In this document: in pieces, positions 5,126 to 26,964 of the stretch
How the letters are laid out: each line of letters starts with the position of its first letter
How positions within the stretch are numbered: position 1 is the stretch's first letter
Virus record (IMG/VR): IMGVR_UViG_3300008448_000076
Location: 1-61,999 of that record
Direction: 5' to 3' (one strand)
Source: a virus
DNA length: 61,999 bases
Notes under the pieces: generated by a model
The model's database searches: none
The model's input: only the letters and a program-made list of their open reading frames with translations
What the model was told of the DNA's origin: nothing
Made by a program: the position numbers and the translations under genes

Positions 5126-5563
5126 TCAATAAATTTTGCAGGGTTTGGATCGTGCGCCAGCTTTCCCGCTATTTGGTGTCACAGCAGAACGTGATCCTTT
5201 TGATGCCGACTTCGACACCATGCCGCCTTTTTTAAAGCCAAGGGCCGAACGTGCTCCACTCTGGGTCATCGGGGGAGGCGGAGCTCCACCTGAAAGCATC
5301 CCGACTGGGGGTACGCTAGGGCCAGAGGAAGAAGGCATGTTTGCAGGCATCGGAGGAGTTTGAGACGCCAGTTTACCTGCCATAACTGACAAGTTCGGCG
5401 GAGGAGCGGCGTTCTGAGGCATAACAGGCGTTATTACATCTGGACGACCAATACCCGGACGAACGGCCATCGGACCGCGACCGCGAAAGCCTTCGCGATT
5501 GTAGCCGCGATCCATTGAAGCACGGGGGCCTTGCATCTGTTTACCCATACCGGAGCGCATCAT
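5126..5563 (-). CDS. Pro/Met/Gly-rich basic protein with KKGGM motif (145 aa)
   Basis: A low-complexity protein rich in Pro, Met, Gly, Arg and Lys. It ends with GFKKGGMVSKSASKGSRSA and a Lys/Arg-rich tail. The KKGGM motif recurs in the small genes at 5560-5703 and 6301-6507, and as KGGM at 5705-5977. The start ATGATG overlaps the stop of the 47-aa gene upstream. Function unknown; the charge suggests nucleic-acid or capsid-interior binding (inference). Confidence 0.65.
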   Translation of the reverse strand: MMRSGMGKQMQGPRASMDRGYNREGFRGRGPMAVRPGIGRPDVITPVMPQNAAPPPNLSVMAGKLASQTPPMPANMPSSSGPSVPPVGMLSGGAPPPPMTQSGARSALGFKKGGMVSKSASKGSRSAVTPNSGKAGARSKPCKIY

Positions 5564-8125: not shown

Positions 8126-10111
8126 TCAGTAAGCCTTCGTTTTGCCGTTCATCCACGTTTCCGTGTTGGTGATTTGGGTGTTGTCGAGGTTTGCGCCGAA
8201 GCGGATAATTGCGCCGTAAAGTCTGCCGTTGTAAGGGAGTGTACTTCCGCCACGACGACCGATGTAGAGTGTTTGCGCATTGAAATTACCGGAACCTTGG
8301 TCGGAGGTACGAGATGCGGCTTGAACACCATCCAATCTCAAAATCATGGTATCCGTTGAAATAGCAAAAATAGACGACATGACTTTTGTACTTGGAGCAA
8401 GAATAACAGATGAGGACGCTCCAGAAGCGACGGAAGCGGTGCCTCTTGAGTAGCAAGCAAAGTCTCCCGACGCCCCTGTATTGTTAGGCGCAAGAAGCAC
8501 AAACGCACCAGCATTTGTTCCTGAATTTGTACCAAGCTCAGTCAACACTCCAGTTGTTGCATCACTCAACTTCCGCACACCCGCAAACACCTGTGCCTTG
8601 TCGGTGCCTGGCGTGATCGTTCCCGTGAGCATGTAATCGTCCGAGCCGTCGAAGCGGAGGTACATTGGGAAGTTGGTGGTGTCGTAGTCGGTCGAAGTGT
8701 TGACGCGTTGGTAGACTGGGAGCGCAACGCCGTCGTTGGCTACACGGAGGTCTGCGCCCCAGATGTAGATGCCTGATGTATTATCGCCTGTATAGGTATT
8801 AAAGTTCCCCATCCCCGCAGGCAAAAGCATTCCAACGCTATTTGCAGTTGAGGAATTAGTTGCATCTGCGGTCACTGTAATAGAACAACGATACCAGTCA
8901 TTACCAACAGATGTGATTGATGCTGTTACGCCGCTTTGAACTTGTGTCGTTTGATTACTTAAATCAAACCAAGCAGTTCGGCCACTATCGGGGAACGCCT
9001 GCGTTTGATAATACATCGCAACGACATTTCTTCCTGCGCTTTTTATGTAACAACTTGCTGTGTATGCTGCCCCAGAGGTGAACGATATTGCCGTGTTAAA
9101 ATAAATCGTTGGCAAAACCGTGCCTGCGTTTTCTTTTAGTTTGTCGGCTGTTGTTGTTCCGTCAGGCGCGGTGGCGTCATTTGCAATTACCGTGCTAGTA
9201 GGAGTGCCGCCTTGGTTCCAAACCGCATCATCAAACTGCTCAGTCTTCGTCAGCAAATTATAACGCGCCGACAACACGGGGCGGGAGGCTGTGGCAGCGG
9301 ACGGGGTGTAGGCGTGGTTGCCTGCTTGGACGTTGTACCAAGTGTCAGTAACAGGCTGGTAGGTTGGAGACACGTTGGCATCCGCAGCGAGGCGGAGGTC
9401 TGCGCCCCAGATTAAAATCCCGTCTGTGCCATTTCCTGTCCAAGCCGAGACGTTACCGTTTGTTTGATCGCATGCTATATACAAACCACGCTGGCTTACT
9501 GATCCACCAGTAAACGTGAGGTCGCATTTATACCAACCATTTCCAACACTTGTGATTGTAGTTGTTGTGCCCGCAGTTTTATTTCCGGTAGTTCCGTTTG
9601 ACAGATTAAAATATCCATACGCGGAACCATATGCTTCGCCAATAAAAACAAAATTGTAACCATCAGCTTTTGCATAAACAGAGGCTGTGTAACTTCCTGA
9701 AGCATATGTTTGAGGTTGTTCTACATAATGCGTCCCGCTGACTGCGGTTGGAATCAACTTTTCAGCCGTTGTAGTTCCGTTTGGTGCAACAGCAGCATTT
9801 TGAGTGATGTTTACTCGAAACTTTGACCAAGCCGCATTATCAAACTCTTGAGTTCGCGTCAGCAAATTCAGACGACGCGTACCGTTCGTTCCAACGCCAT
9901 TCTTTGACTTATCGAGGATTACGGAGACAGGCTGTTCCACAGCGGAGACGGGTGTCGCTCCGTTGAAGTCCTGAAACATCGTGGACATATCGCTCGGATC
10001 GTACCACGCGCCGGGTTCGCTGGCCGAGAACAAGGAAAGCGGCGTGAAGGCAGAAAGGCCCGTATCAAAGAACGGGCTACGAAGCGCGATCTGATTAAAC
10101 GGGCTTTCCAT
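8126..10111 (-). CDS. Tail spike/fibre protein with repeated lectin-like domains (661 aa)
   Basis: I take the ATG at 10111 (MESPFNQIALRSP); an 8-residue longer frame needs a TTG start at 10135. Two related domains begin NLLTRTQEFDNAAWSK and NLLTKTEQFDDAVWNQGG. Each is followed by a YTASVYAKADG/YTASCYIKSAG strand and a WYKCDLTF/WYRCSITV strand, the pattern of phage spike carbohydrate-binding repeats. The C-terminal part (FDGSDDYMLTG ... TLYIGRRGG ... RLYGAIIRFG) looks like a concanavalin/LamG fold. Surface glycan binding is the natural inference. Confidence 0.75.
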   Translation of the reverse strand: MESPFNQIALRSPFFDTGLSAFTPLSLFSASEPGAWYDPSDMSTMFQDFNGATPVSAVEQPVSVILDKSKNGVGTNGTRRLNLLTRTQEFDNAAWSKFRVNITQNAAVAPNGTTTAEKLIPTAVSGTHYVEQPQTYASGSYTASVYAKADGYNFVFIGEAYGSAYGYFNLSNGTTGNKTAGTTTTITSVGNGWYKCDLTFTGGSVSQRGLYIACDQTNGNVSAWTGNGTDGILIWGADLRLAADANVSPTYQPVTDTWYNVQAGNHAYTPSAATASRPVLSARYNLLTKTEQFDDAVWNQGGTPTSTVIANDATAPDGTTTADKLKENAGTVLPTIYFNTAISFTSGAAYTASCYIKSAGRNVVAMYYQTQAFPDSGRTAWFDLSNQTTQVQSGVTASITSVGNDWYRCSITVTADATNSSTANSVGMLLPAGMGNFNTYTGDNTSGIYIWGADLRVANDGVALPVYQRVNTSTDYDTTNFPMYLRFDGSDDYMLTGTITPGTDKAQVFAGVRKLSDATTGVLTELGTNSGTNAGAFVLLAPNNTGASGDFACYSRGTASVASGASSSVILAPSTKVMSSIFAISTDTMILRLDGVQAASRTSDQGSGNFNAQTLYIGRRGGSTLPYNGRLYGAIIRFGANLDNTQITNTETWMNGKTKAY

Positions 10112-10112
10112 A

Positions 10113-10397
10113 TTAGTCAGTATCCACGTACACAACTGCGCGGCGACCGCCGACAGGCTTTGCCCAGACGCGCTTTGCGCCCGACAAGGATGTCAAATCG
10201 GCCATGGCCTTTTGCAACTCACCAAGACCTTCAGGATATTCAATCCCGCGAGCCGCAGTTGGAGTCGTTGTATCAGTTGTGAACCGGACATAGATGTCCG
10301 AGGTCTGAACCTGAAAGGTGATTTCAGTGGCATCAGCATTGGTCAGCTGAGTCCAGACATTCGGTTCGCAATAAACAGTTGCTTGGTTCTGAGCCAT
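10113..10397 (-). CDS. Small virion-region protein (94 aa)
   Basis: A beta-type protein beginning MAQNQATVYCEPNVWTQLTN and ending KRVWAKPVGGRRAVVYVDTD. It is separated from the upstream 157-aa gene by a 62-base gap holding a strong hairpin (10419-10443). No motif recognised; probably structural. Confidence 0.6.
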   Translation of the reverse strand: MAQNQATVYCEPNVWTQLTNADATEITFQVQTSDIYVRFTTDTTTPTAARGIEYPEGLGELQKAMADLTSLSGAKRVWAKPVGGRRAVVYVDTD

Positions 10398-10418
10398 ATC
10401 TAACCCCTGTGCTTAGAC

Positions 10419-10443
10419 AGAGGTAGCCTGTGAGGCTACCTCT
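10419..10443 (-). terminator. Perfect 10-bp hairpin between late genes
   Basis: AGAGGTAGCC and GGCTACCTCT pair perfectly around a TGTGA loop. It lies in the gap after the 157-aa virion gene on the minus strand. There is no T-tract after it on either strand, so it may be a weak terminator, an RNA processing site or an mRNA-stabilising end rather than a classic intrinsic terminator. Confidence 0.5.
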
Positions 10444-10459
10444 ATCAAGATACATTCAA

Positions 10460-10933
10460 TCAAGGATTGATTGAACCGGGTTGGACATACGTCACAACGA
10501 GTGTACCAGCACCAGAGCCCGTGTTCGACGAGGTCACAACGATGCGGTTATCCGCTGTTCCGACGTTGACGAAGGCTGCGGTGCGCGTAGCGTCCGTGCC
10601 CGGGCCTACACTGACATCACCAATTGTGCCGCCAGCAACTGCACCAGCTGCCGTGAATTTCGTGGCAAGTGCTGTCGTGCCGATGCCGAGAGTCGAGGCT
10701 GCACCGGTCCATGCTGTCGTGACATAGAGCTTGATATCTGTGATGAGGCTGCCAGCCGGAACCACGATGCTCGTCGTGTAAACGCCAGCAACCGAACCGT
10801 TGGTTGCCTGTGTAATTGCTTCGGACTGAACTGTAGCAACCGTGCCGACGTTGGCAACATCTTGGCCGAGTGTCGTGCCGGTCGTGAACTTGATTGGGCC
10901 AGCTTTAATTGGTCCCGTGAACGTAGAAGCCAT
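10460..10933 (-). CDS. Virion/head-decoration-like protein (157 aa)
   Basis: The protein MASTFTGPIKAGPIKFTTGT... is Gly/Ala/Thr/Val-rich and predicted all beta, ending GTLVVTYVQPGSINP. It is the first gene after the major capsid gene, from which it is separated by about 120 bases with two hairpins. Position and composition suggest a head decoration or minor capsid protein, but no family was proven. Confidence 0.6.
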   Translation of the reverse strand: MASTFTGPIKAGPIKFTTGTTLGQDVANVGTVATVQSEAITQATNGSVAGVYTTSIVVPAGSLITDIKLYVTTAWTGAASTLGIGTTALATKFTAAGAVAGGTIGDVSVGPGTDATRTAAFVNVGTADNRIVVTSSNTGSGAGTLVVTYVQPGSINP

Positions 10934-11001
10934 TGTAATGTTCCTTATGCAGAAGTTTGGCCCTGTAGTCTCTGCATCGTCTGCCGGGACAGTCTACAAA
11001 G

Positions 11002-11048
11002 CCGGGTTGACCCGGATAGAGGAGAGACCGGAGTTGCCCCCGGTCTCT
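11002..11048 (-). terminator. Tandem hairpins just after the capsid gene
   Basis: AGAGACCGG (11023-11031) pairs with CCGGTCTCT (11040-11048). A second palindrome, CCGGGTTGACCCGG, sits at 11002-11015. Both lie immediately 3' of the capsid stop codon on the minus strand. There is no strong T-tract, although CTTTG follows the second. They could partly terminate transcription or protect the capsid mRNA end. Confidence 0.5.
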
Positions 11049-11056
11049 TAGTCTTA

Positions 11057-11965
11057 TTAAGCGCCCTGCGAGCCGTAGATCGCGCGAGGATCCGACCAAC
11101 CGAACGAGTAACGCTCACGCGCCTTGTAGCGCACGTTGCCCGTTTCGAAGTCGCCTTCCATCGCCGTCTTGAGCGGCGAACGCACGAAGTGCTTGAGGCC
11201 ATTCGGTGCATCCGTCTTAACGAACCACGCATCAGGGTCAGTCAGGAAGTGATTGACCGCGAAGCCCTGCGGCAGGTAGCCGCCGGTCTTGATTGCGTTG
11301 ATGTCGTTATCTGATGTCGAAACGCGCTGTTCCGACTTCAGGATACGCTCTGCAGTGAACTGAAGTGCAGGCGGAATGATAAGCTTCATGCCGCGGGTTG
11401 CAATCTTCAGACCACGCTCGTCGATGAAGGCAGCAATATCAATGAGCGCCTGTTCAAGAGACGTTTCATTGAGGTCGGCCTGCGTAGCAAGCGTGTTCGA
11501 CCAGTTGCCACCACCCGTCGTCGGGTGAGCAGAGTTGATCAACGACACATTGTCGCCGCCCTTGTAGGACGAAGAGAACGCATTGTTGAGGACAGAGGCA
11601 GCCTTGACCTGCTTCGTGTTCGCCATAGAACGTGCGAGAGCACGGGTATAGCGAGCCGAGAGCTTGTCGTAGAGGTTGTCTTCAACCGCTTCTTCAGTGA
11701 TGGCGAATGCAAGAGCAATCGTCTCATGGGTGTAGCGAGCGGTGAAAGCTTCACCTGCCGTGTCATAAGCGATGGCAGAACCTTCGCCTTTGGTCGGAGC
11801 TTGGCCGAAGCCGGAGAGCATCACTTCTTCTTCGAATGCACGATCCGAGTTCTCCGTATCGAAGATCTCAGCGTGTTCGTTGTCGTAGCGATCATACTCC
11901 ATGCCGAACAAAGCGTTCAGACCGGGCTCAAGTTCCTTGAGGAGCTGTGAACGAGTAATAGCCAT
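11057..11965 (-). CDS. Major capsid protein, HK97 fold (Mu gpT-like)
   Basis: A 302-aa protein beginning MAITRSQLLKELEPGLNALF. Diagnostic stretches are EEVMLSGFGQAPTKGEGSAI, HETIALAFAITEEAVEDNLY and ARALARSMANTKQV-like helices (here RALARSMANTKQVKAASVLN), then GLKIATRGMKLIIPPAL and the C-terminal RYSFGWSDPRAIYGS. This matches HK97-fold capsids of the Mu gpT type. The ribosome site AAGGAG lies a few bases before the ATG. Flanking scaffold-like, decoration-like and co-chaperonin genes support the call. No protease-type N-terminal delta domain is evident. Confidence 0.85.
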   Translation of the reverse strand: MAITRSQLLKELEPGLNALFGMEYDRYDNEHAEIFDTENSDRAFEEEVMLSGFGQAPTKGEGSAIAYDTAGEAFTARYTHETIALAFAITEEAVEDNLYDKLSARYTRALARSMANTKQVKAASVLNNAFSSSYKGGDNVSLINSAHPTTGGGNWSNTLATQADLNETSLEQALIDIAAFIDERGLKIATRGMKLIIPPALQFTAERILKSEQRVSTSDNDINAIKTGGYLPQGFAVNHFLTDPDAWFVKTDAPNGLKHFVRSPLKTAMEGDFETGNVRYKARERYSFGWSDPRAIYGSQGA

Positions 11966-11978
11966 GGTTCATTACTCC

Positions 11979-12596
11979 TTAGACGCCAGCACCGGTGCCG
12001 TTAGCACCGTAGCGATAGAAGTGGTTGTTAAGCATAACAATCGCCAAACGACCAGCCGCCGCTGCATCCGAGTTCGCAGGAGTATCCTCGAAGCCGATGA
12101 TGCGGAGGTTGAGACTGTTTGTCGTGTTTGCCGTCGAAACAGCGAGTTCACCAGACGAGAGACCCGACACTGTGCTACCGCTGGTAGCTGTGGCGAAGTT
12201 TGCGTTTGCATGAACAAGCGCGTCAGCCGCTGCCGCATCGCAGTTGATGAGGAAGAGCTGATCTGGATGCGCAGCAATCTCTGCTGTTGCAACCGTGTTA
12301 GCCATAACCGAGGCTGTGCCCGGCCAGTACGGCGACCACTTGGGCTTGCCGGAAAGGTCGATGTAGTTGCAGCCGAGGAATGCGCCAAGGAGCGGAACAG
12401 TACCACCGTTGGCATTGCCGACGATATCAATCATACCGTTTGCGAGCGGAATAACAGGGGTGCCCTGATAAATTACGCTCGACGTGCCTGCCGTAGCAGC
12501 GGTCTGAATGGTATACGTTGCGTTACCATTGGTGTTAGCACCGGCTCCAAGCATGTTATACGGACGGAGTCCGAAAGCGGCATCAATATTTGCCAT
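11979..12596 (-). CDS. Head-associated structural protein (205 aa)
   Basis: It begins MANIDAAFGLRPYNMLGAGA, is Ala/Gly/Thr/Asn-rich, and contains GCNYIDLSGKPKWSPYWPGT. Proteins of this type are usually encoded directly before the capsid gene in related phages and are annotated as head or decoration proteins. It lies 13 bases upstream of the capsid gene in the same transcript. The function is inferred from position. Confidence 0.65.
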   Translation of the reverse strand: MANIDAAFGLRPYNMLGAGANTNGNATYTIQTAATAGTSSVIYQGTPVIPLANGMIDIVGNANGGTVPLLGAFLGCNYIDLSGKPKWSPYWPGTASVMANTVATAEIAAHPDQLFLINCDAAAADALVHANANFATATSGSTVSGLSSGELAVSTANTTNSLNLRIIGFEDTPANSDAAAAGRLAIVMLNNHFYRYGANGTGAGV

Positions 12597-12611
12597 TGCT
12601 TAGATCCTTAA

Positions 12612-13073
12612 TTATTCGGAGGAACGATTTCCACCGAAGGTGACACGGGATTGCCGTTCAGGTTTAATGATCGGCATAACTGGATTTTGATCTCTCATAA
12701 GATCGTTATCAACAGCAGCAAGCTGGTCATTTGTCTGCGTACGGTAGTACGCATTTCGTTGTTTTACCAACTCTTCCGGTATGCGGGCTAATACAAGACC
12801 CCCAACCGCAATGACACCGGCATGCTTGCCGTCGTTAATCGTAGGCAGATCATCACGATCTGGGTATTCATCTGCGCGAACAAGTTCAAAGCCCTCGCGT
12901 AGGCGTGCGGAGAGATTCTTCCGGTCGTCCATGCCACCAGATTCCATACGGATCCAGCGGTGTACAAATCCCGCCGGGGGCGGGGGTGCATCCAACGTAG
13001 ATGGTGGTTTCCATGCTACTGGACGGGTAGTCGTGTTGCGTGTCGAAGCAGCGCGTGGTGAGCGATCAACCAT
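12612..13073 (-). CDS. Conserved head-cassette protein (153 aa)
   Basis: A polar, Arg-rich N-terminus (MVDRSPRAASTRNTTTRPVA) precedes GFVHRWIRMESGGMDDRKNL and FELVRADEYPDRDDLPTIND. The region IAVGGLVLARIPEELVKQRN is followed by an acidic helix. The pattern is conserved between scaffold and capsid genes of podoviruses. It overlaps the scaffold-like gene by one base. Probable head-assembly factor; function unknown. Confidence 0.65.
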   Translation of the reverse strand: MVDRSPRAASTRNTTTRPVAWKPPSTLDAPPPPAGFVHRWIRMESGGMDDRKNLSARLREGFELVRADEYPDRDDLPTINDGKHAGVIAVGGLVLARIPEELVKQRNAYYRTQTNDQLAAVDNDLMRDQNPVMPIIKPERQSRVTFGGNRSSE

Positions 13074-13984
13074 TATTCGGCCCTCTCTCTAGCGAGCTTC
13101 AACTGACGTTTGTAATCATCATAGCTTACGCCAAGACGACGTGCAATACTTTTCTGAGATTCCGTCAGTTCAGCATCAGTAGATGCTTTCTTAACCTGAG
13201 TAGGACGCCCAGAAGCGACAGCAGAAGCGGGTTTCTTTTGCACGATTTCCTTAAACTTGTTTGGAAACTCTTTACGCATACGCATGTCGAGTTCCTTGTA
13301 GTAATCATCAGCAGCACCATCGTACCCCTCGTTCATGAGATCATTGTGGATCTCATAAGCCGTGAAGGTCATGGCACGGTCTGAACCAAACCACTGGTTC
13401 CGATTTGCCCAGTCCTGAGCCTTTTTGTCAGGTCGAGGAGGGGGAGCGGGTGGAGTAACCGGGTTTTGTGGGACAGCCGTTTCCTGCTGTTCACGATAAA
13501 CCTTGTAGTTTCGCAGGCGCTCACGCTCAATTGCAAGCTGGGCAAGCGTCTGCTGGGCCTCGACCTGCTTATCAACATCACCGCTGTCAACGGCGAGCTT
13601 AAACTGGTCTTTCAGAAGCTGTTCTTGGGCCTTAAGGCGAACTTCCGCCTCAGTCTCAAGGTTCTTGCTGAGTTGCTGTTCACGTTTCTTGAGCGTGTCC
13701 AGCTCAGACTTTACGGCTTTCGCATACTCAAGAGCTTCTAATTCACGGCGCTCAAGTTCGCGAGACTTCGCTGTCAAACGGCCAATACGGCGTTGAACAG
13801 ACTTACTATATTGAGCAAGATCGTCGTCTTCGGACTCGTCAAAATCGTCTTCCGAGTCGTCATCCTTGTCATCTTCTACAGCAGATGCTTTGGTTTCCTT
13901 CTCACCGGACTCTTCTTCCGTTTCAAGTTCTTCCGTAACTTCAGTCTCTTTAACCTCTTCTTCAGAGGTGTCTTTATCAAGCAT
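13073..13984 (-). CDS. Scaffolding-like protein (303 aa)
   Basis: The first about 90 residues are extremely acidic (EEEVKETEVTEELETEEESG and a DDKDDDSEDDFDESEDDD run). A long charged coiled coil follows (RRIGRLTAKSRELERRELEA onward), then a Pro-rich linker (PVTPPAPPPRP) and a basic helical C-terminus (SIARRLGVSYDDYKRQLKLA). Acidic N-terminus, coiled coil and basic capsid-binding tail are typical of phage scaffolds, as is the place just before the head genes. Assignment is by architecture. Confidence 0.7.
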   Translation of the reverse strand: MLDKDTSEEEVKETEVTEELETEEESGEKETKASAVEDDKDDDSEDDFDESEDDDLAQYSKSVQRRIGRLTAKSRELERRELEALEYAKAVKSELDTLKKREQQLSKNLETEAEVRLKAQEQLLKDQFKLAVDSGDVDKQVEAQQTLAQLAIERERLRNYKVYREQQETAVPQNPVTPPAPPPRPDKKAQDWANRNQWFGSDRAMTFTAYEIHNDLMNEGYDGAADDYYKELDMRMRKEFPNKFKEIVQKKPASAVASGRPTQVKKASTDAELTESQKSIARRLGVSYDDYKRQLKLARERAE

Positions 13985-15431: not shown

Positions 15432-18347
15432 TTATGGATAGGCAGGGCTTAAAGTTTCGGTAGATAGACGAGGCGTGTAAGCACGACGCGTCAGATCCAT
15501 TCCGGTAGTATACACCGGAGGAGCGGGTTGCTCCACCTTCGGCTCTTTTTTAGAACCTGATGGAGCGCGGTATCTGTCAGCGGCATCTCGGCCACCGCCG
15601 CCGGTAGACAAAACCGGCATATCTCCCTCAAGAACATTCAAAGCGGATGGCGCTGCAGTAGCGACAGGAAGATCCGCGGTACCTTCTATCGCATCGATCT
15701 GCTCCTCGGTGTGACCGAGTGCCCGGAGCACGTCTCTGTAACCGGTCAAAGGTTCTTGAGGAGCGTTGTAGTTCTCACCCAAAACTTCGCTGCGAAGTCC
15801 GTTGAACGTGTAGTCGAGAAGATTTGAAAGCTTGCCTTCTCGTACCGCGGCCTGAGTTGCTTCTGGGGAGGTTACGCCCTTTGTCTGCGCCACCTGTGTT
15901 ACGCCAGCAGGAAGACCCCAGAGAGCCGCCTGCTTTTCTGTGAGACCTGTTTCCCAGCTTCCGCCAAGAGGTCTGTTACCACCAATGCGACGATCCATAA
16001 CATCGAGCGCACCGTAGACACCTTTTGGACCAGAGAAGTAGCCGCCCCAGTAATACTTGTCCGTGATCTCCGGATAGATCTGCTTCTGTATCTCGCGACC
16101 AACCATGGCTGGCTGCTCGTAGTTCGAGAAGAACACGGGGTTCTGATAGTTCGGAAGACGCTGGCCATCTGCAGTCATGATCGCCACGTCGAGCGCACGG
16201 CCTGTGGAGTGAACGCCAGTGTCTGCCGGGCGAACACCGGAAGTGAACTCGTAGTATTGACCAGCAGGAAGCGAAACAGATTCCTTCCGAGCAATATCAA
16301 GCAGACGAGGATCTACACCACGAGTTACTGCGGCATTTTCACGGACCTTAAATGGCCCTGTCCTGCTTTCCAAAGTACGACGTTGGCGTTCCGTCTCATC
16401 CAGAATGTTGTAGATCTGATCGGTGGACATGTTTGCAAGCGCACCGCTGATCTGTGCCGGGGTAGAATTAGCACTGATACCGGCAGCTTCAATGAACGCA
16501 GGGAGACCTGTTGGAGCAGGTGGCTGATACTGTCCCTCATACTGCATGGCAGCAGGCGTTTCCGGAAACGCTTTTGGTGACCCGGTTGGAACCTGAGCGA
16601 AAGTCGGAAGATTAACAGCGGCAGGCTGCTCAGGAGCAGTAATGCCGCGAGTGGTTGGAGCAGGAGGCGCATAACCGTACCCGCCAGATAAAATTTCGCT
16701 GCGGAGACCGGAAGGTTGCGGGCCTTCAACAAGGCTTGCCGATTTAGTTAAGTTTTCAAACTCTGCATCAAGAGATCGCGCAACATTCTGCGCAGCTTCA
16801 CTGCGGAAGCCCGGAGGACCAGCAACTTCGACTGGGGCTGGGGCTTCGGCTCCACGCTCAGGAGGCAGAGGGACAGGGCGCACATCAACAAACTGACGTG
16901 GGTCCAGTGTCATTTGGCCTGTAGAACCTTCCGGCATCTTTGATTGCGGGACGATGTATTGTCTGGCCGAAAGTTCAGCAACCTTTGCCATTTGTTCACC
17001 AGACGGCATACCGCCTTCTGTTGTCACAATGGACCCGTCTTCCGCAACCCTTAACCCGGCTAAGGGGAGATTTTTCATTATGCTCTGTGCAACCTGAGCA
17101 TCCGTTTGGTAATAATTTGTCGCTGGATTATCCGGTGTAAAGTACGCGGGATCGTTCGCGTATTTTGCAGGATTAACGTTAAATGTCGCCCCAAAAACTT
17201 TTGCGGGGACAGTAATGTCATTAAGAGCCTGACGGTACTGTTGGATAGCGGTCTGCATATCAAACGTACCGATGCGGCCCGGCGGCAAACCTTCCAGACT
17301 TAAGGCCGGAGCAGGAGCATTCATGGCTTCTTGCGCCGCTTCACTACGGAAGCCCGGGACATTAAACGAGGTTGTCGGCTGGATAGTAAGACCTATCGGC
17401 GTTACGACCTGATTACCAGTCTGTTCGACGGAAACAGGCGTACCATATTGGTCCTGAAACCGCTCGCGCTGCATTTCATTAAACATCTGCACTTCAGCAG
17501 GAGATACCATGCGGCCAGAGCCGCCCGGGTCAAGATACGCTGGTGTTGCAGGGGCAGTAGGGGTGAAATCATAGCCGCCTGTAGCAGCCTCACTGCGGAA
17601 ACCCGGTGTGCTCGGAGCCACTTGTTGTGGGGCAGAAAGCATGTCCCGAAGGGATACAATGCCGCGTCCTGCGAGATCGCCAAGTTGAGCAGCAGACGGA
17701 AGTTCCGGGGCAGATGGAATCATGCTTCCAAAATACTGCGATGGGTTCGCCATCATCTGGCGATACTGGCCGGTGCTGTAGTCACTGAAATCCAACAGAC
17801 CTTGGCCCGCAGATTGCGCAACATTCGACACAGACTGCATCGTGTTCGCAACAATCGTCGGAACACCGAGGCTTTGCATAAAGTTTGAAGAGTTGCCGCC
17901 ACCCATAGGCGCAAAACTGCCGCCACCAGAGCTGATCATAGTCGGTGTGCCTGCAGTAAGCATGCCACCGCCGCCACCACCTGTGTAAGATGGGCTCTGA
18001 TTGCTGCTGGATGAGTCTCGGCCACCACCGCTGGTATAGTAGCTCCCGCCCCCACCGCCACCAACAGAAGGGTTTGTAGCACCACTGCTACTTACTCCAC
18101 CGGGAGACGAGGACCCGCCGCCAAAGCCGCTTAGGCCCGGGCTAACGCTGTTGGAGGGTGCATCATACGCGCCCATGCCGGGGTTATCGAACTCAAGAAG
18201 TCCTGTTGCCGGGTTCACCGTCCCGCTGCCGCCCATGCGTTTAAGCATAGCTGCTTCTTCAGGCATGATGTGGGCGAGGATCTTATCTCCCCCACGCCCT
18301 TGGGCCTGAAGTTGCTGGGCAATAGCGCGGATGCCGGTGTTTTTCAT
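15432..18347 (-). CDS. Large Pro/Gly-rich virion protein with peptidase-M15-like domain (971 aa)
   Basis: The N-terminus carries a LAH(I)MPEEAAMLKRMGGSGT motif followed by NPATGLLEF, which is also found in the 457-aa protein at 55245. A long Gly/Ser/Pro-rich region has repeated FRSEAA/LRSE peptides. Residues about 695-800 look like a peptidase M15 domain: SGVRPADTGVHSTGRALDVA with H713 and D720 placed as in SxHxxGxAxD. The third zinc-ligand His expected in a 'LMHFD'-type strand appears as Asp (VMDRRIGG, D785), so activity is doubtful. Placement after the portal suggests a virion-associated lysin or ejection protein (inference). Confidence 0.7.
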   Translation of the reverse strand: MKNTGIRAIAQQLQAQGRGGDKILAHIMPEEAAMLKRMGGSGTVNPATGLLEFDNPGMGAYDAPSNSVSPGLSGFGGGSSSPGGVSSSGATNPSVGGGGGGSYYTSGGGRDSSSSNQSPSYTGGGGGGMLTAGTPTMISSGGGSFAPMGGGNSSNFMQSLGVPTIVANTMQSVSNVAQSAGQGLLDFSDYSTGQYRQMMANPSQYFGSMIPSAPELPSAAQLGDLAGRGIVSLRDMLSAPQQVAPSTPGFRSEAATGGYDFTPTAPATPAYLDPGGSGRMVSPAEVQMFNEMQRERFQDQYGTPVSVEQTGNQVVTPIGLTIQPTTSFNVPGFRSEAAQEAMNAPAPALSLEGLPPGRIGTFDMQTAIQQYRQALNDITVPAKVFGATFNVNPAKYANDPAYFTPDNPATNYYQTDAQVAQSIMKNLPLAGLRVAEDGSIVTTEGGMPSGEQMAKVAELSARQYIVPQSKMPEGSTGQMTLDPRQFVDVRPVPLPPERGAEAPAPVEVAGPPGFRSEAAQNVARSLDAEFENLTKSASLVEGPQPSGLRSEILSGGYGYAPPAPTTRGITAPEQPAAVNLPTFAQVPTGSPKAFPETPAAMQYEGQYQPPAPTGLPAFIEAAGISANSTPAQISGALANMSTDQIYNILDETERQRRTLESRTGPFKVRENAAVTRGVDPRLLDIARKESVSLPAGQYYEFTSGVRPADTGVHSTGRALDVAIMTADGQRLPNYQNPVFFSNYEQPAMVGREIQKQIYPEITDKYYWGGYFSGPKGVYGALDVMDRRIGGNRPLGGSWETGLTEKQAALWGLPAGVTQVAQTKGVTSPEATQAAVREGKLSNLLDYTFNGLRSEVLGENYNAPQEPLTGYRDVLRALGHTEEQIDAIEGTADLPVATAAPSALNVLEGDMPVLSTGGGGRDAADRYRAPSGSKKEPKVEQPAPPVYTTGMDLTRRAYTPRLSTETLSPAYP

Positions 18348-20698
18348 TACTGCCTCTTTGTGGCTGCAACACGAGCCAATGCAACATTGGCACGAAGCTG
18401 GGCGATGTCCTCAAGCGACTGGGTCTTCTCACGATCCATCGCAATCTTCTGACGAGCCTTCTCGGCATCAAACTGCAGACGTTGCGCATCATTTTGCGAC
18501 TTCATCTGGAGTTCTTGTGCCTTCAACTGGAGGTTCTGCTGTTGGAGTTGGACCAACGGATCACCTTGTTGCGGCGGAGCAAGGCGCTGCATCAACTGCT
18601 GCATCATTGCTGCTTCAGCCTTTGCGACTTCAACCTGCATCTGATCCGCACTCAACGGTATCATGATACCGGCTTGCTGCATTTGCAGGACGACTTGCTG
18701 CTGTGCTGCAAGAGACATGTGCTCAAGGACGTGCGACATCAGAACGCCGTAAACAGGTGGCGACATCTGGACCAACGGCAACTGCATAAACATCAGATGC
18801 GTTTCCATATGCGCCAGATGATCCTGTTCAGGGAAAACCTTCAACGGTTGTCCACCGGACGGGATCACCATCGACCGCGCATTCTCCAGAGCAGGGCTTT
18901 CCGGCTGAGGCTGAGGAGGGGGCGGAAGAATAAGGTCAACATCCGTGACACCAAGCGCATTATACATGCGCCGATAGGCCTCATAGAGGTTGTGCATCTG
19001 CGGCGCTTGCTGTGCCAGTTGCAATTGCTGCTGGGCAAGCGTCACACGCTGCGTCATCGAGAAGATGTTCGGGTCGCTGACCGGAACGATGTCAATTCTG
19101 TCATCAAAATCCGCAGATTTGATGACACTCTCGCCACCAGACACCTCATACGGGTACTCAGGCGGCAGATATTCTGCAATAACCTTCGCAATAAGCTTGA
19201 GTTCCTGCATTTGTGCGTAGTGCAGGCGCTTGTGGACCGCCGACATGATGCGGCTGCCACGTTCAAGCATAGCCATTGCGGTGCCGACCGGCATTTCTTG
19301 GTTGGAATCACCCATTCCAAGGTCAGTCGTACCAATAAACTTCTGCGTAGCGTCGATACAGAAGCCCAAAAGCTGGAAAAGAGTACCTGACGGCTCCTTA
19401 TACGGCAGCGGAAGCAGACTCTGGGCCAAATCACCACCCGGAGCATCGACATCTCGCCACTCGCCCGGCTGAATAGGACTTTGGTCCTCTACTCGCAGGC
19501 CCTTTGCCTTGAAGCCAGCTGGCAAATTCGACAAAGTACCGGCATCAATCAGCTGACGGAGGATAGAAGTAGCCGAACGGGACAGGTTTCCAAGCAAATG
19601 GACGAGGCCGAAGCCATAAAAGCCCATGCCCGGCAGGAATTTGTAGTGAACGAAGTACTGTTTCTTCCGCTTCTGGGGGTCTGTTGGGTTCCAATTGCGG
19701 CGGATCGACAGAACTTTGTTCGATTTTGTCTCAAAAGTGACGATATACGGCAGCATAAGCCCCGTTTCCTCGTCATTTTCGTCCTTGTCCTCAAAGCCTT
19801 CGAGATCCAAGAAGCAATGGCACTCGTAAATCGTGTAGTCGTCCGGCTCTGCAGAGGGTTCTACCCCCTGAATTTTGTCCATCTTCTGCTGAATTGTGTC
19901 GGTATCAGAATAGGACGGCTTTCCTATATCGATATCGCGATAAAAACCGCTGAACTGGAGACGCTTCAACTCTGCCGGGCTATAATGCAGGACGTGTGTA
20001 ACACGCTCTGTGGTCATCAGATCACGGGCAGAGTACGGGACGATCAAGTCTTTGGGCAGAATATAGGGTGACGTTGCCCGGCCAAGGTAGCCGTCATACG
20101 AAACCTTCTTGAATGCCGAGCCGCCGTAGCCGACGAAGTACAGCATCTGATCGAAATCAGGGTCATACTCTTCCATGACCTGAGTGATCTGGTAATTCAT
20201 GAACGTCTTGACGCGTTCGGCCTGCGCTTCCTTCTCAGGGGTCACCTTGCCAAGGATCTGGGTACGAACAGGGCCGCCCGGCGGCAGCAGTTCCTTGTAG
20301 GACTGCGCCTGAAACTGGTTCACAGCCTCGTTCAGGATAGGATGTGTAACGCCCGTTGCGCCATCGAACGGCTCAGTGCGGTCATCATAGGTCAGACCGA
20401 GGAGATCCATCCCCTGCTCATAGACCTTTTCCCACTCTGCCCGGCTTGTCAGGTCATCTTCGATGAAGCCCTGAAGGTCCTTTGCCAGTTTGCCCAGCTT
20501 CCCGTCGTCAATGTACTCAGCAAGGTTGGCTTCAAAAGGAATGTTTGCCATCTCAAGGGCATCTTCCTCTTCCTCCGAAAGTTCGTAGGCTTCCTCTTCG
20601 GATTCCATGGACGCTTCTTCGTCCGTCAACTCATCCATATTTTCTTCTGGATCCGCATAAATCGGAGAGACGACGTTGTTAATCGGAGTTCTAGCCAT
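18347..20698 (-). CDS. Portal protein (783 aa)
   Basis: An acidic start (NMDELTDEEASMESEEEAYE) precedes the portal body. The body has LLGLTYDDRTEPFDGATGVT, HPILNEAVNQFQAQSYKELL, LYFVGYGGSAFKKVSYD and IRRNWNPTDPQKRKKQYFVH. The GFKAKGLRVEDQSPIQPGEW region and the FIGTTDLGMGDSNQEMPVGT crown region follow. The last about 130 residues are a Gln-rich helical barrel. Portals of this size and pattern occur in P22-like and environmental podoviruses. The twelve-fold ring is the DNA channel and binds terminase, encoded directly upstream with a one-base overlap. Confidence 0.85.
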   Translation of the reverse strand: MARTPINNVVSPIYADPEENMDELTDEEASMESEEEAYELSEEEEDALEMANIPFEANLAEYIDDGKLGKLAKDLQGFIEDDLTSRAEWEKVYEQGMDLLGLTYDDRTEPFDGATGVTHPILNEAVNQFQAQSYKELLPPGGPVRTQILGKVTPEKEAQAERVKTFMNYQITQVMEEYDPDFDQMLYFVGYGGSAFKKVSYDGYLGRATSPYILPKDLIVPYSARDLMTTERVTHVLHYSPAELKRLQFSGFYRDIDIGKPSYSDTDTIQQKMDKIQGVEPSAEPDDYTIYECHCFLDLEGFEDKDENDEETGLMLPYIVTFETKSNKVLSIRRNWNPTDPQKRKKQYFVHYKFLPGMGFYGFGLVHLLGNLSRSATSILRQLIDAGTLSNLPAGFKAKGLRVEDQSPIQPGEWRDVDAPGGDLAQSLLPLPYKEPSGTLFQLLGFCIDATQKFIGTTDLGMGDSNQEMPVGTAMAMLERGSRIMSAVHKRLHYAQMQELKLIAKVIAEYLPPEYPYEVSGGESVIKSADFDDRIDIVPVSDPNIFSMTQRVTLAQQQLQLAQQAPQMHNLYEAYRRMYNALGVTDVDLILPPPPQPQPESPALENARSMVIPSGGQPLKVFPEQDHLAHMETHLMFMQLPLVQMSPPVYGVLMSHVLEHMSLAAQQQVVLQMQQAGIMIPLSADQMQVEVAKAEAAMMQQLMQRLAPPQQGDPLVQLQQQNLQLKAQELQMKSQNDAQRLQFDAEKARQKIAMDREKTQSLEDIAQLRANVALARVAATKRQ

Positions 20699-22182
20699 CA
20701 GTAATAAACCCTTCTTCCGACCTTCTCGACGCGCTCGACTTCAAAGTCATCCGGATGCGTCAAGAACCCGCCCTGCCTGAAACGCATAAGTGCCTGTGTC
20801 GCGGCGTCACAATGGTCATCATGCTCCGCATAAGGGAAAGATGCCATCTCTTCAATGACCTCTTCCGCCCAACTCGTTTCAGGATACCACACAAGACCCG
20901 CTTCAAACAATGGGGCAACGGAGTTCATGCGGCTAAACTTGTCGTTCCCGCGGCTCGGGGTAAAGTTCACGACCGGGATGCCCGTTGACCGGAGTTCCTG
21001 AGACAGTGGCAGACCGGCAGCCTTCGCTTCGATCAGGACCGTTTCCGGATCCCAGTATTTGTACTCTTCATATGCAATGCGCTTCAGGTCCGGGAACTCC
21101 CATCGCCCCTTCTTGGCATCCAGCAAAATCACATTCGGGGGACTGTCCTCTGTGGGATAGAACACGCCCCATGTGTGGATCGCACTGAAGTCGGCCCGGT
21201 TGCTTTTCAAGAAAGCCGTATCGTAGCTTTGCATGACATAGTGCAGACGAGGGACATCCGTTTTGTCCCACTTCTTCCACCAGTCACGTTTAATAATCGA
21301 CGCCGAGTCCGATGTCGGCGTTTGCATGTATTGGGCGTTCCACTTCGAGAGCGGAATCGAAGCCCTGACTTTTTCCAGTTCCTCAAGCTTCCAGTACTCA
21401 GGCCACAGCGGCTTGCCGCTCGGCAGGATGGCCGGGAACTCAATGATCTCCCACTGGTCAGCCTTCGGATCCTGAGCAGATTGTTTCAGCAGACGGGCGG
21501 TCAAATCATTGTCGCCCCATCGCGTCATAACAAGGATAATAGCACCACCGGGCTGAAGACGCTGACGAGGACCAGCAGTATACCAATCCCAAGCGTTTTC
21601 AAGCGCAGTGGGGGACTGGGCGTCTTGTTCGGAGTGGGGGTCATCGACAATAAAGAGATCAGCACCGCGACCAGCAATGTTGCCTCCGACACCTGAAGCG
21701 TAATATTCACCACCGCCATCCGTTTCCCAGCGATACGCTGCTTTACTGTCTGAACGAAGCTTGACCCCGAAAACCTCCTGGTAGTCTTCCTGCTCCATAA
21801 GGTTCTTCACCTTACGACCGAAACGCACGGACAGATCAGCGGTGTGGGTTGCCTGCATGATCTTCAACTCAGGCCTGCGCCCGATCATCCACGCCGGAAA
21901 CAGGAAACTTGCGAACTCTGACTTCGTATGACGAGGAGGGAGGTTAATGATCACGCGCTTCAACTCACCGCGGGCAATCGCCTCAAACTTCTCGGCGATC
22001 ATCTTGTGATGTGCGCCAGCAATAAAGTTCGGCCACACAAACTTCACGAAATCCAAGAAGCTGTCGCGAGCCTTCTCTTCCTTCGTCTTGACGACAGCGT
22101 AGTCCAAAAGATTCGCAAATTTCTTCAAGACCTCTTCAGGCACAGAAGAAAGGTCAGAGGTCAAAGGAGAGATGTCAGTCAT
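20698..22182 (-). CDS. Terminase large subunit
   Basis: A 494-aa protein with an ATPase and a nuclease domain. Walker-A-like PPRHTKSE is at residues 82-89 and Walker B LFIVDD at 176-181, with MTRWGDND coupling residues near 219-226. The RNase-H-like nuclease has acidic positions D321 (QSYDTAF), E385 (LIEAKAAG) and D456/D459 (HDDHCDA). It packages DNA into the prohead through the portal. The presumed small subunit is not adjacent; a candidate is at 26301-26891. It overlaps both neighbours by one base. Confidence 0.93.
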   Translation of the reverse strand: MTDISPLTSDLSSVPEEVLKKFANLLDYAVVKTKEEKARDSFLDFVKFVWPNFIAGAHHKMIAEKFEAIARGELKRVIINLPPRHTKSEFASFLFPAWMIGRRPELKIMQATHTADLSVRFGRKVKNLMEQEDYQEVFGVKLRSDSKAAYRWETDGGGEYYASGVGGNIAGRGADLFIVDDPHSEQDAQSPTALENAWDWYTAGPRQRLQPGGAIILVMTRWGDNDLTARLLKQSAQDPKADQWEIIEFPAILPSGKPLWPEYWKLEELEKVRASIPLSKWNAQYMQTPTSDSASIIKRDWWKKWDKTDVPRLHYVMQSYDTAFLKSNRADFSAIHTWGVFYPTEDSPPNVILLDAKKGRWEFPDLKRIAYEEYKYWDPETVLIEAKAAGLPLSQELRSTGIPVVNFTPSRGNDKFSRMNSVAPLFEAGLVWYPETSWAEEVIEEMASFPYAEHDDHCDAATQALMRFRQGGFLTHPDDFEVERVEKVGRRVYY

Positions 22183-24441: not shown

Positions 24442-24479
24442 AATTGCCACTTATCCGGCGCGGCATAGTGTCGCGTCGG
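24442..24479 (+). repeat. Leader repeat copy 2: AATTGCC box plus hairpin
   Basis: It starts with a 23-bp sequence (24442-24464) that recurs exactly at 24730 and 24957. CCGGCGCG pairs with CGCGTCGG (one G-T) around GCATAGTGT. The hairpin ends about 10 bases before a GGGAGAAA ribosome site. Confidence 0.7.
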
Positions 24480-24500
24480 TTTATCACAGGGAGAAATAAG

Positions 24501-24728
24501 ATGCGTCCTATCTATGAAATAGCACATGAGATTAGCAGGGACTGGAAAAAGCCCTACTTCGGCGCAGTGCCATATCTTGACGCAATGCGTTCATTAAACA
24601 GCGTGACCGATAGCTTCTATCAGGACAGCGCAAAGTCAGTTGTGCTTTACTTTCTGTCCAATGCGAACACATGGCGCGGCGAGACTGCTAAACGCGTGAA
24701 GGCCGAACTCAAGGCAATGGTGAAATAA
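24501..24728 (+). CDS. Unknown small basic protein (75 aa)
   Basis: The ATG at 24501 follows GGGAGAAATAAG. The protein begins MRPIYEIAHEISRDWKKPYF and contains AMRSLNSVTDSFYQDSAKSV, a mostly helical sequence. Similar short proteins appear in phages as unknowns. No function assigned. Confidence 0.65.
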   Translation: MRPIYEIAHEISRDWKKPYFGAVPYLDAMRSLNSVTDSFYQDSAKSVVLYFLSNANTWRGETAKRVKAELKAMVK

Positions 24729-24729
24729 T

Positions 24730-24767
24730 AATTGCCACTTATCCGGCGCGGCACAATGTCGCGTCGG
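24730..24767 (+). repeat. Leader repeat copy 3: AATTGCC box plus hairpin
   Basis: This is an exact copy of the 23-bp box (24730-24752), followed by the same stem-loop: CCGGCGCG / CGCGTCGG around GCACAATGT. Base changes are confined to the loop centre, which suggests that the stem and the loop ends are conserved. Confidence 0.7.
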
Positions 24768-24790
24768 ATTTGTTTTTAGGGAGAAAGAAC

Positions 24791-24955
24791 ATGGCGTGGG
24801 TTATCGTGAATACAGAAGAACCTGACTTATGCTGGTCTAATACCGATGGATGGGTCGAAGATAACTATGACACATTCAGTGACGAAGAACGCGAGATACT
24901 GCACTTGCCAATAGGCGGTGCATGGGAGCGCGTTCCTTGGCAAAAGAAAGATTAA
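24791..24955 (+). CDS. Unknown small acidic protein (54 aa)
   Basis: The ATG at 24791 follows GGGAGAAAGAAC. It begins MAWVIVNTEEPDLCWSNTDG and contains a clustered acidic stretch (YDTFSDEEREILHLPIGG). No family recognised. Confidence 0.6.
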   Translation: MAWVIVNTEEPDLCWSNTDGWVEDNYDTFSDEEREILHLPIGGAWERVPWQKKD

Positions 24956-24956
24956 T

Positions 24957-25009
24957 AATTGCCACTTATCCGGCGCGGCCCGTGCTTTGTCGGCGCGGGT
25001 CGCATTTAA
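24957..25009 (+). repeat. Leader repeat copy 4 with longer hairpin
   Basis: This is a third exact copy of the 23-bp box (24957-24979). GCGGCCCG pairs with CGGGTCGC (one G-T) around a 13-base loop. It lies just before the promoter of the Gp88-like gene and could end the preceding small-gene transcript. Confidence 0.6.
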
Positions 25010-25010
25010 T

Positions 25011-25055
25011 GCATACCTGCTATGATTTGATTTTTATTTGACCATTTCCTATATT
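25011..25055 (+). promoter_or_regulatory. Sigma70-type promoter with upstream motif
   Basis: TTGATT (25027-25032), 17-base spacer, TATATT (25050-25055). The upstream 20-mer GCATACCTGCTATGATTTGA is repeated with two changes at 27783-27802 in front of the other early promoter, which suggests a shared operator or activator site. Confidence 0.6.
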
Positions 25056-25089
25056 CCATTTTGTCATGTCCAATAGAAAGGGAGAAAAC

Positions 25090-25737
25090 ATGATCACTTT
25101 GAAAGAAGCACATGAGGCAGGAAAAGTCTCAGTATCCAATGGCAAAATGCCAGGGTCCACTTTTGCGATATCTGCCCGGGCTTGCAATGTCGGGGGGAAA
25201 CTTGCCGAACTCAAGGGTTCAGTTTGCCACAAATGCTATGCCCTGAAATTGCAGAACTTGAGACCTTCAGTAAATACCGGCTGGACTGGAAACTTAGATA
25301 AGGCCGTCCGCATGATCAATTCTGATCCGGCGCGATGGGTCGCGTTCATGGCCTTTCAAATAAACAAGGCCTATGAAAAAACCGGCGAGGCCTTCCATCG
25401 GTGGTTTGACAGTGGAGACCTGCAATCTGTCCAGATGCTAGACGCGATATGCGAAGTGGCCCGCGCTACCCCGCAGATCAAGCATTGGCTCCCGACGCGT
25501 GAGGGCAAAATTCTAAAGGCCTTTACCGGCTCACTGCCCGACAATCTCGTGATCCGCGTATCAAGTCCCATGATCGACGACAAGCCCATGGCGGGTTACA
25601 TCTGGACAAGCACAGTCCACAAGCACAGTGAGCCAGAAGGCCATGTGTGCCCTGCCCGTCATCAAGGCAATTCATGCGGATCCTGCCGCGCTTGCTGGTC
25701 AGACGCTGTTCGCAATATTTCCTATCCCCTCCACTAG
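25090..25737 (+). CDS. Gp88-like phage protein (215 aa)
   Basis: The ATG at 25090 follows GGGAGAAAAC; an earlier in-frame ATG at 25066 lacks a ribosome site. The sequence has VSNGKMPGSTFAISARACNV, CHKCYALKLQ, WTGNLDKAVRMINSDP, FHRWFDSGDLQSVQMLDAIC and a C-terminal CPARHQGNSCGSCRACW cluster. This is the gene-product-88 family of phage proteins, which has a Cys-rich, probably metal- or Fe-S-binding end. The biochemical function is not established. It ends just before an intrinsic terminator. Confidence 0.8.
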   Translation: MITLKEAHEAGKVSVSNGKMPGSTFAISARACNVGGKLAELKGSVCHKCYALKLQNLRPSVNTGWTGNLDKAVRMINSDPARWVAFMAFQINKAYEKTGEAFHRWFDSGDLQSVQMLDAICEVARATPQIKHWLPTREGKILKAFTGSLPDNLVIRVSSPMIDDKPMAGYIWTSTVHKHSEPEGHVCPARHQGNSCGSCRACWSDAVRNISYPLH

Positions 25738-25816
25738 GGGATAGGTTATAACAGTTTCCGGCGCGTTGATGCGTGGCAACCCTCCCTTGCCTTCTATCGC
25801 TCCGCGCCCACCTTGG

Positions 25817-25851
25817 CCCCGTGTTGGTTTTACCGGCACGGGGTCTTTTTT
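25817..25851 (+). terminator. Intrinsic terminator
   Basis: CCCCGTG (25817-25823) pairs with CACGGGG (25837-25843), 13-base loop, followed by TCTTTTTT. It is the best Rho-independent terminator in the window. It ends the first early transcript and shields the parS region from read-through. Confidence 0.85.
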
Positions 25852-26029
25852 ATTGCCACTTGACCGGCGCAGATTCTGCTTATCCGGCGCGATGTTTCAC
25901 GTGAAACAATTCCTACTTGACCGGCGCGTCAGTCATCAAGATCCTACTTGACCGGCGCGTCAGTCATTACCGGCTCTCAAACCACAGTTTTAAATGGTCA
26001 AATAACAAATGCCACTTGACCGGCGCAGA
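25852..26029 (+). repeat. CTT(AT/GA)CCGGCGC direct-repeat array
   Basis: Twelve-base cores in one orientation begin at 25859, 25879, 25916, 25947 and 26015; three more start at 24450, 24738 and 24965 in the leader boxes. A 26-bp perfect repeat is at 25911-25936 and 25942-25967 (period 31). A 20-bp repeat TGCCACTTGACCGGCGCAGA is at 25854 and 26010. The parS site sits between the second and third core. The layout resembles plasmid iterons or partition-site arrays. Confidence 0.8.
25893..25908. other. parS: Canonical chromosomal-type parS site
   Basis: TGTTTCACGTGAAACA is a perfect 16-bp palindrome, identical to the consensus bound by chromosomal ParB (Spo0J). The chance expectation in a 62-kb random sequence is far below one (about 62,000/4^16). 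It lies in the only convergent intergenic gap of the early region, surrounded by direct repeats. No ParA or ParB gene was seen, so host ParB would be the binder (inference). Confidence 0.9.
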
Positions 26030-26353
26030 TAAGACCAATTCCGGCTGACAACTGCCCTTTGTCGCCAGTTCAAGCAGAGATTTGCATGAATAAATTTCTA
26101 CGGTTTGAGCCCGTGGACGGCTAACCAAGTTCCAGACGTTCGGGAAAATTAACGATCTCCTTGTTTGCCATGCAATCTGCGCAGGTCGCCATAAAGATAT
26201 GTCTATATCATTGTTGGTCTTGCATACCTTGTTTTCGAGCCAAAACTCTCCGAATTCCGCGGCCCCGTTCACGTCCGGCATGCCCGCTCCGGCCCATGCT
26301 TCAACTCTCGTCCAGTGGACCTCTAGCGGGCTCGATTTCAAGGACTGCCACAT
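25967..26353 (-). CDS. PD-(D/E)XK nuclease-like protein (128 aa)
   Basis: The order WTRVEAWAGAGMPDVNG ... EFWLENK gives D27, E40 and K42 of a PD-(D/E)XK site. RPAQIAWQTRRS is a conserved following motif in phage VRR-NUC/resolvase-like proteins. The ATG at 26353 overlaps the upstream terminase-like gene by 53 bases; a TTG at 26341 is an alternative. The last about 25 codons run through the repeat copy at 26010-26029, so the C-terminus is probably repeat-derived. Likely a DNA-junction or end-processing nuclease. Confidence 0.7.
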   Translation of the reverse strand: MWQSLKSSPLEVHWTRVEAWAGAGMPDVNGAAEFGEFWLENKVCKTNNDIDISLWRPAQIAWQTRRSLIFPNVWNLVSRPRAQTVEIYSCKSLLELATKGSCQPELVLSAPVKWHLLFDHLKLWFESR

Positions 26354-26891
26354 CTTCTTTTCGGTCTGAAACAGGGTTGATCTCCTTCATCTTGGCGAGG
26401 TTGGCAAGTGCAGGGAATTCCTGCGTAAGCTTCTGGATCTCTCGAAGCACCTCATCTTTGCTCATCTGGTCGATCCGGCCCACAAGGATCTCGGAGCGGG
26501 AGATGTACAGGCCCGCCGCCATGCCTCGCTGTTTCTCCGCGGCCACTGCCGCCGCTGTCTGCCCGTTCTGCAATGCGATGTCGCGGATCTTGGCAAGTTC
26601 CGTAATGTGGTTGTCGTATGTGACTTCGTACTTCTTCGCCAGTTCTGCTTTGATCTCGCGGATGCGGGCGACGATGTTCGGGTGGTCTCGGCCATTCAAA
26701 AACTTAGAGGCTTGTGTGGCCGCGTCCACGTATCCGGCGAGCCGTGCCGCCTCGGTCTGGGTCACGTTCTGGGTCGCGTAGATCTGGCAGAATTTCTCCT
26801 GCATCTCCGTGATCCCGTAATCCAAAAGAGGAATTGCTGAGGGATCTGAAGTACTTACCTTAACTTTGTGCGTTCGCTTTCTATCCGTCAC
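26301..26891 (-). CDS. Terminase small-subunit-like protein (196 aa)
   Basis: I choose the GTG at 26891-26889, preceded by GGAAAGGAA; a TTG at 26945 would add 18 residues. The N-terminal part reads LDYGITEMQEKFCQIYATQN, then VTQTEAARLAGYVDAATQAS as a helix-turn-helix. KFLNGRDHPNIVARIREIKA and AKKYEVTYDNHITELAKIRD follow. This is the layout of phage small terminases (Terminase_2-like). It lies about 3.4 kb from the large subunit and in a separate minus-strand unit with the nuclease gene. Confidence 0.75.
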   Translation of the reverse strand: MTDRKRTHKVKVSTSDPSAIPLLDYGITEMQEKFCQIYATQNVTQTEAARLAGYVDAATQASKFLNGRDHPNIVARIREIKAELAKKYEVTYDNHITELAKIRDIALQNGQTAAAVAAEKQRGMAAGLYISRSEILVGRIDQMSKDEVLREIQKLTQEFPALANLAKMKEINPVSDRKEDVAVLEIEPARGPLDES

Positions 26892-26964
26892 AGAGGATTC
26901 CTTTCCTACACAGGACTGCTGTCCTATTTCCAGTATTAAGGCCAAAAACCAAATGGAAAAAAAA

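Follow-up and report, generated by a model that had tools for sequence, protein, structure and literature searches.

Several phages carry a centromere site. P1, N15 and the extrachromosomal prophages of actinobacteriophages encode their own ParA and ParB, which have sites of their own, and persist as plasmids. The chromosomal ParABS-SMC systems of bacteria use parS. Those of Caulobacter, Hyphomonas, Bacillus and SAR11, for example, have one 16-bp palindrome in common, in which a T/C:A/G change at positions 5/12 is tolerated. ParB, a CTP clamp, is loaded at parS and from there slides onto the neighbouring DNA (PMC12704722), and bacterial SMC is recruited at parS (PMC10197239). A clamp-loading site near promoters can also lower transcription: the chromosomal ParB of Pseudomonas aeruginosa represses the promoters adjoining parS3 and parS4 (PMC5521831), and KorB, the ParB-type clamp that acts from OB in plasmid RK2, silences promoters at distances of up to 1.5 kb (PMC11790492).

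We analysed an entire virus record of 61,999 bases (hereafter the window), which carries an exact chromosomal parS. It is likewise a phage genome with a centromere site; unlike the P1- and N15-type phages, it gave no match in a Pfam search to ParB_N (PF02195), to ParA-type ATPases (AAA_31, PF13614) or to the tyrosine integrase (PF00589). The site differs from chromosomal parS in standing without parA or parB and, in most of the family, in lying at the terminase locus and not at the origin. Unlike the KorB and P. aeruginosa cases, the clamp here would be the chromosomal ParB of the host acting on phage DNA. We found no report of natural parS sites in phages lacking ParB in the literature searched (subscription papers and preprints lay outside its scope).

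The parS site and its surroundings

The site of the window, TGTTTCACGTGAAACA at 25893..25908 (a perfect palindrome, no strand assigned), meets the chromosomal-type consensus tGTTNCACGTGNAACa exactly. It is the sole parS-like site found in the window by a scan tolerating up to 3 mismatches, a tolerance at which 0.44 sites are expected. The same 16-mer is contained in the 20-bp duplex crystallised with ParB (PMC7383237) and is identical to the published consensus of the alphaproteobacterium Hyphomonas (PMC7022226). It lies in a convergent intergenic gap of 229 bp (25738..25966, no strand assigned), bordered by the stop codons of two facing ORFs: a GP88-family gene (PF17338; 25066..25737, + strand), convergent to the terS side and ending at 25737, and a small gene with a phrog_2165 match (25967..26353, - strand), whose stop is at 25967. 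A terminator-like hairpin of 14 pairs followed by T6 (25815..25845, + strand) is found 3' of the GP88 gene.

The gap is also part of a repeat array. The motif ACTTNNCCGGCGC occurs eight times in the window, always on the same strand, with starts from 24449 to 26014. Five copies form a cluster at 25858..26026 (+ strand; starts 25858, 25878, 25915, 25946 and 26014), with parS between the second and the third, and three further copies (24449..24976, + strand; starts 24449, 24737 and 24964) occupy gaps between small genes. The copy at 24737 forms part of a terminator-like hairpin (24741-24769), and the array (24449-26026) is also present in the relatives L237 (10 copies) and L238 (6 copies). These repeats may act as terminators or, next to terS, as a binding array. 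The original prediction described a perfect chromosomal parS in a gene-free convergent gap, behind a terminator and inside a repeat array, in a phage where no partition gene was found, and all these features are present as described.

The terminase small subunit is encoded at 26301..26945 (terS, - strand; phrog_51, PF03592) and the large subunit at 20698..22182 (terL, - strand; phrog_38, PF17289), which places parS 0.4 kb past the terS stop and 3.7 kb upstream of the terL start. A SU10-type portal protein (18347..20698, - strand), a family-A DNA polymerase, a primase and helicases are also encoded in the record. ParB_N was matched in none of 24 family records, as judged by one Pfam model, integrase in none of 19 and the ParA-type ATPase in none of 16.

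By TerL, the cultured phages closest to the window are Pelagibacter phage HTVC027P (62%), 023Pt_psg01 (60%), DSL-LC04 (57%) and HTVC023P (57%). HTVC023P-type pelagiphages resemble the window not only in this related TerL (HTVC027P 62%, HTVC023P 57%), as their terS and terL are also kilobases apart. SAR11 itself would be disfavoured as the host of the window phage because the G+C content of the window is 51%. HTVC027P infects SAR11 and has been described as lytic (PMC12753301). Between its terS and terL it carries CGTTTCACGTGAAACA; this is only a lead, because it has one mismatch and lies within a possible unannotated ORF. No such parS-like site was found between terS and terL in HTVC023P and 023Pt_psg01.

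Selection on a host-type site

The exact 16-mer TGTTTCACGTGAAACA was found in at least 120 stretches of IMG/VR, and the second known parS form, TGTTCCACGTGGAACA (TGTTCC), also in at least 120. The TGTTTCACGTGAAACA palindrome read backwards occurred once in IMG/VR, and a further palindrome of matched composition, centred on ACGT, did not occur. These two composition-matched controls (1 and 0 versus at least 120) exclude a chance match, which the original prediction had already held to be very unlikely.

The lineage of the window itself shows how the site changes. In L237/L203, the nearest informative relative, whose GP88 and TerS are 84% and 83% identical to those of the window, the orthologous gap carries TGTTCCACGTGGAACA between the same two repeats, a placement read directly from the sequences since the MAFFT alignment misplaced the gap around parS. 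This site differs from that of the window by a mirror-symmetric pair of changes, which gives the other known form of parS. By simple arithmetic, 1080 double substitutions are possible in 16 bp, of which 24 keep the palindrome and 1 gives the TGTTCCACGTGGAACA form. Tandem sites, one TGTTTC and one TGTTCC, are present in L555 and L556, and their order is swapped between the two loci. Paired, symmetry-preserving switches between the two known forms argue that the site is kept palindromic by selection. The scan of close relatives did not find parS absent from all of them: L237/L203 has the site, L238 is without parS in the orthologous gap, and in a third relative, L205, the contig end is too near the site to inform.

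No ParB_N match was found in 46 of the 50 parS-bearing viral records tested (45 of the 50 being pattern matches of at least 18 kb), in a search that was positive in the controls Caulobacter, Bacillus and others. Viral contigs thus commonly have parS and lack ParB, and this count alone proves little on phage use, because some contigs may hold host DNA. For the TerL family of the window, host contamination of IMG/VR is excluded, since parS adjoins TerL in contigs fetched by TerL alone. One contig labelled viral, L087 (65% G+C), has twelve TGTTTCACGTG(A/G)AACA sites within 5 kb (8906-13878); it resembles a chromosomal origin region and may well be host DNA.

Exact parS sites were also seen elsewhere among viral contigs. 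They lie near a rep gene (PF23343) in the microvirus-sized contigs L006 (3842-3857) and L076 (2536-2551), which are probably small single-stranded DNA phages of a group unrelated to the window phage. The phi29-like contig L010 has three (at 5525, 5551 and 12130), two of these lying a short way upstream of its tail knob gene.

On the host side, 7 of 15 SAR11 genomes, all fragmented, have exactly one consensus site. It is always TGTTTCACGTGAAACA, and lies inside gidB beside parA in both genomes inspected. The enrichment over the controls, the compensated change in the relative, the swapped tandem forms, the identity with the SAR11 site and the lack of a phage ParB together make a selected host-ParB site a well-supported reading of these sequences. 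The window site is very probably a real one, to which host ParB is predicted to bind.

Position at the terminase locus

The TerL family of the window was encoded in 37 of the 120 parS stretches among the matches listed (TerL profile search), and in 14 of these 37, again among the matches listed, parS was 18-151 nt upstream of terL. An independent TGTTCC scan gave a weaker picture, with the TerL family in 17 of 119 loci among the matches listed and the sites again upstream of terL. Because all these loci had been picked by parS, the test was repeated on loci picked by TerL only. Around the TerL relatives of the window, all nine consensus sites (9/9) were within 2 kb upstream of terL (binomial, 1e-7 if the sites were independent, which those of related contigs are not). 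Among 80 loci fetched by similarity to the TerL of L119, which are related and therefore not independent events, and most of which come from fragmentary records, 60 had parS. All of their 70 sites were within 1.2 kb upstream of terL, usually beside the promoter of the terminase operon; the remaining 533 kb contained none, and the reversed-palindrome control gave no site in the same 80 loci. The window parS is at the same terminase locus as in these relatives, in a different micro-position. This location in related phages, often directly upstream of the terminase-operon promoter, is the strongest clue, and the original prediction had missed it.

The distribution of parS on the TerL tree requires 8 changes, of which well-supported branches force at least 6, and the site was therefore gained or lost several times. 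It is also dispensable, since several TerL clades (e.g., L529-L539 and L156-L199) are without it. In L017, L044 and L053, close to a divergent branch of this TerL family, exact parS sites are clustered, with three to five of them within ~0.7-0.9 kb. In L078, parS (1048-1063) directly precedes a terminase of another family (Terminase_3), which suggests that the link with terminases is wider than this TerL family. L078 was the sole clear case at loci without this TerL, where a Pfam scan of 144 flanking genes gave few packaging or portal families, and we do not claim a rule that parS lies beside any terminase.

The leader of the marine clade runs as follows: a conserved GGGCCATGTTT block beginning ~42 nt before parS, parS itself, ~30 nt, TTGTTA-N17-CATATT, GGGGCCCC and the start codon. 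TTGTTA-N17-CATATT is a plausible -35/-10 promoter pair, and parS either ends ~30 nt upstream of the -35 or sits just downstream of a -10, as do the two copies 7-8 bp apart in L555, L556 and L563. The GCCATGTTT block, nearly unique in the ~10-kb loci, marks this leader. Where terS precedes terL (L511-L516), the whole block is upstream of terS. In a sister clade (L529, L531, L533 and others), the block and the promoter are kept and parS is missing together with ~30 bp of its right flank. The spacing between parS and the promoter differs between clades. When 29 non-redundant sites were aligned on the exact TGTTTC form, the flanking columns dropped to 0.15-0.9 bits; the 2 bits of the site itself in that alignment are not evidence, because exact matches were selected.

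Other arrangements were noted in the family. In L492-L570, a conserved block, GGGCCATGTTTCTCACAAATAAT, nearly unique per locus, precedes terL, or the terS-terL pair, by ~150 nt, and GGGGCCCC stands just before the start codon; the two are possibly a promoter or a packaging signal of this clade. In L133-L137 and L146, parS overlaps the start codon of an HNH gene, and where these relatives have parS, L138 (977-992) and L139 (1407-1422) have the palindrome TGTTTCATATGAAACA, likewise symmetric and at the HNH start codon. The CACGTG core of parS is conserved, and TGTTTCATATGAAACA breaks this ParB core, so ParB is not expected to bind it.

A proposed role of host ParB at the packaging locus

The explanation that we prefer, tentatively and at somewhat under an even chance, is that the packaging locus of the phage serves as a loading site for host ParB clamps, which locally tune the terminase genes. 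Under this explanation, parS is a genuine host-ParB site, kept under selection and placed at the terminase locus, and host ParB-CTP clamps would load there on incoming and replicating phage DNA. The clamps would slide across the neighbouring terS-terL region and, near the terminase promoters, may restrain or otherwise tune the expression of packaging genes early in infection. The effect would wane once phage copies exceed host ParB, and packaging would thereby wait for replication.

The terminase position speaks for a local role of parS more than for simple partition or titration, which would work from any position, and the place of the site beside the terminase promoter in the marine clade favours local control of the packaging genes. 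Local control of the terminase genes through parS is, taken on its own, a possibility that we put slightly below an even chance. This regulatory reading is weaker for the window phage than for the marine clade because the window site, in its convergent gap, has no promoter beside it; upstream of terS, the nearest promoter-like sequences are ~1.1 kb off, weak and no commoner than in shuffles. The varying spacing between parS and promoter, unlike that of a fixed operator, counts against local control, and the TerL clades without parS, L238, also without the site, and L138 and L139, with TGTTTCATATGAAACA, count against the preferred explanation.

In the main rival reading, parS may recruit host ParB and, through it, SMC-ScpAB or ParA, and so help to compact, disentangle or position the phage DNA as it replicates near the start of packaging; the site would then be at the terminase locus because packaging starts there. 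SMC is indeed recruited at parS in bacteria (PMC10197239), the position of the site varies around the terminase genes with no single promoter geometry, and L017, L044 and L053 have groups of 3 to 5 sites that resemble chromosomal centromere clusters. The marine-clade site, however, travels with the promoter block and not with terL itself, and we regard this alternative as doubtful. Organisation or positioning of DNA through ParB/SMC or ParA, taken as an effect in its own right, is likewise rather unlikely, and we would give only a minor share of the probability to effects other than terminase control and DNA organisation or positioning.

Plasmid-like segregation, raised by the original prediction, is improbable. 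Here, parS would let host ParAB share a plasmid-like or carrier-state phage genome between daughter cells; a lone parS is what a replicon needs to exploit host ParAB, and slow-growing marine hosts might divide during infection. Yet the window gave no integrase or partition gene, the family records gave 0/19 integrases and 0/16 ParA-type ATPases, the relative HTVC027P has been described as lytic (PMC12753301) and the terminase position is left unexplained. The original prediction is partly supported: a selected site for host ParB is well supported, and the plasmid-like form is not favoured.

Reading of the palindrome by a phage protein (e.g., a regulator or the terminase small subunit), with the parS match due to convergence, is very unlikely. 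Such a reader would fit the palindromes overlapping the HNH start codon in L133-L139, one variant of which is symmetric with a broken ParB core. It would not account for identical sites in unrelated viruses (the microvirus-like L006 and L076, the phi29-like L010 and L078 with its other terminase) or beside parA in SAR11 chromosomes, nor for the use of both known forms, TGTTTC and TGTTCC. Least likely is titration, also put forward originally, in which many phage copies of parS would strip ParB from the host origin and disturb segregation: site number would climb with phage replication, but there is usually one site per genome at one place, whereas a decoy would be multiplied and its place irrelevant.

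To return to the preferred explanation, tuning of the terminase genes by host ParB, a broader version of it is conceivable, if on the unlikely side. In a large group of marine and freshwater lytic phages, host ParB might serve as a trans-acting factor at the terminase locus; packaging, or the packaging genes, would be coupled to ParB occupancy and freed once phage copies outgrow the supply of ParB, which would make a viral copy-number sensor out of the host centromere. The parS observation spans many viral records and carries a warning, as parS in metagenomic contigs is not a safe marker of a chromosome or an origin. If the explanation is true, viruses would exploit the bacterial centromere machinery, encoding none of it themselves, at the gene that starts DNA packaging, and chromosome segregation proteins would be tied to phage development.
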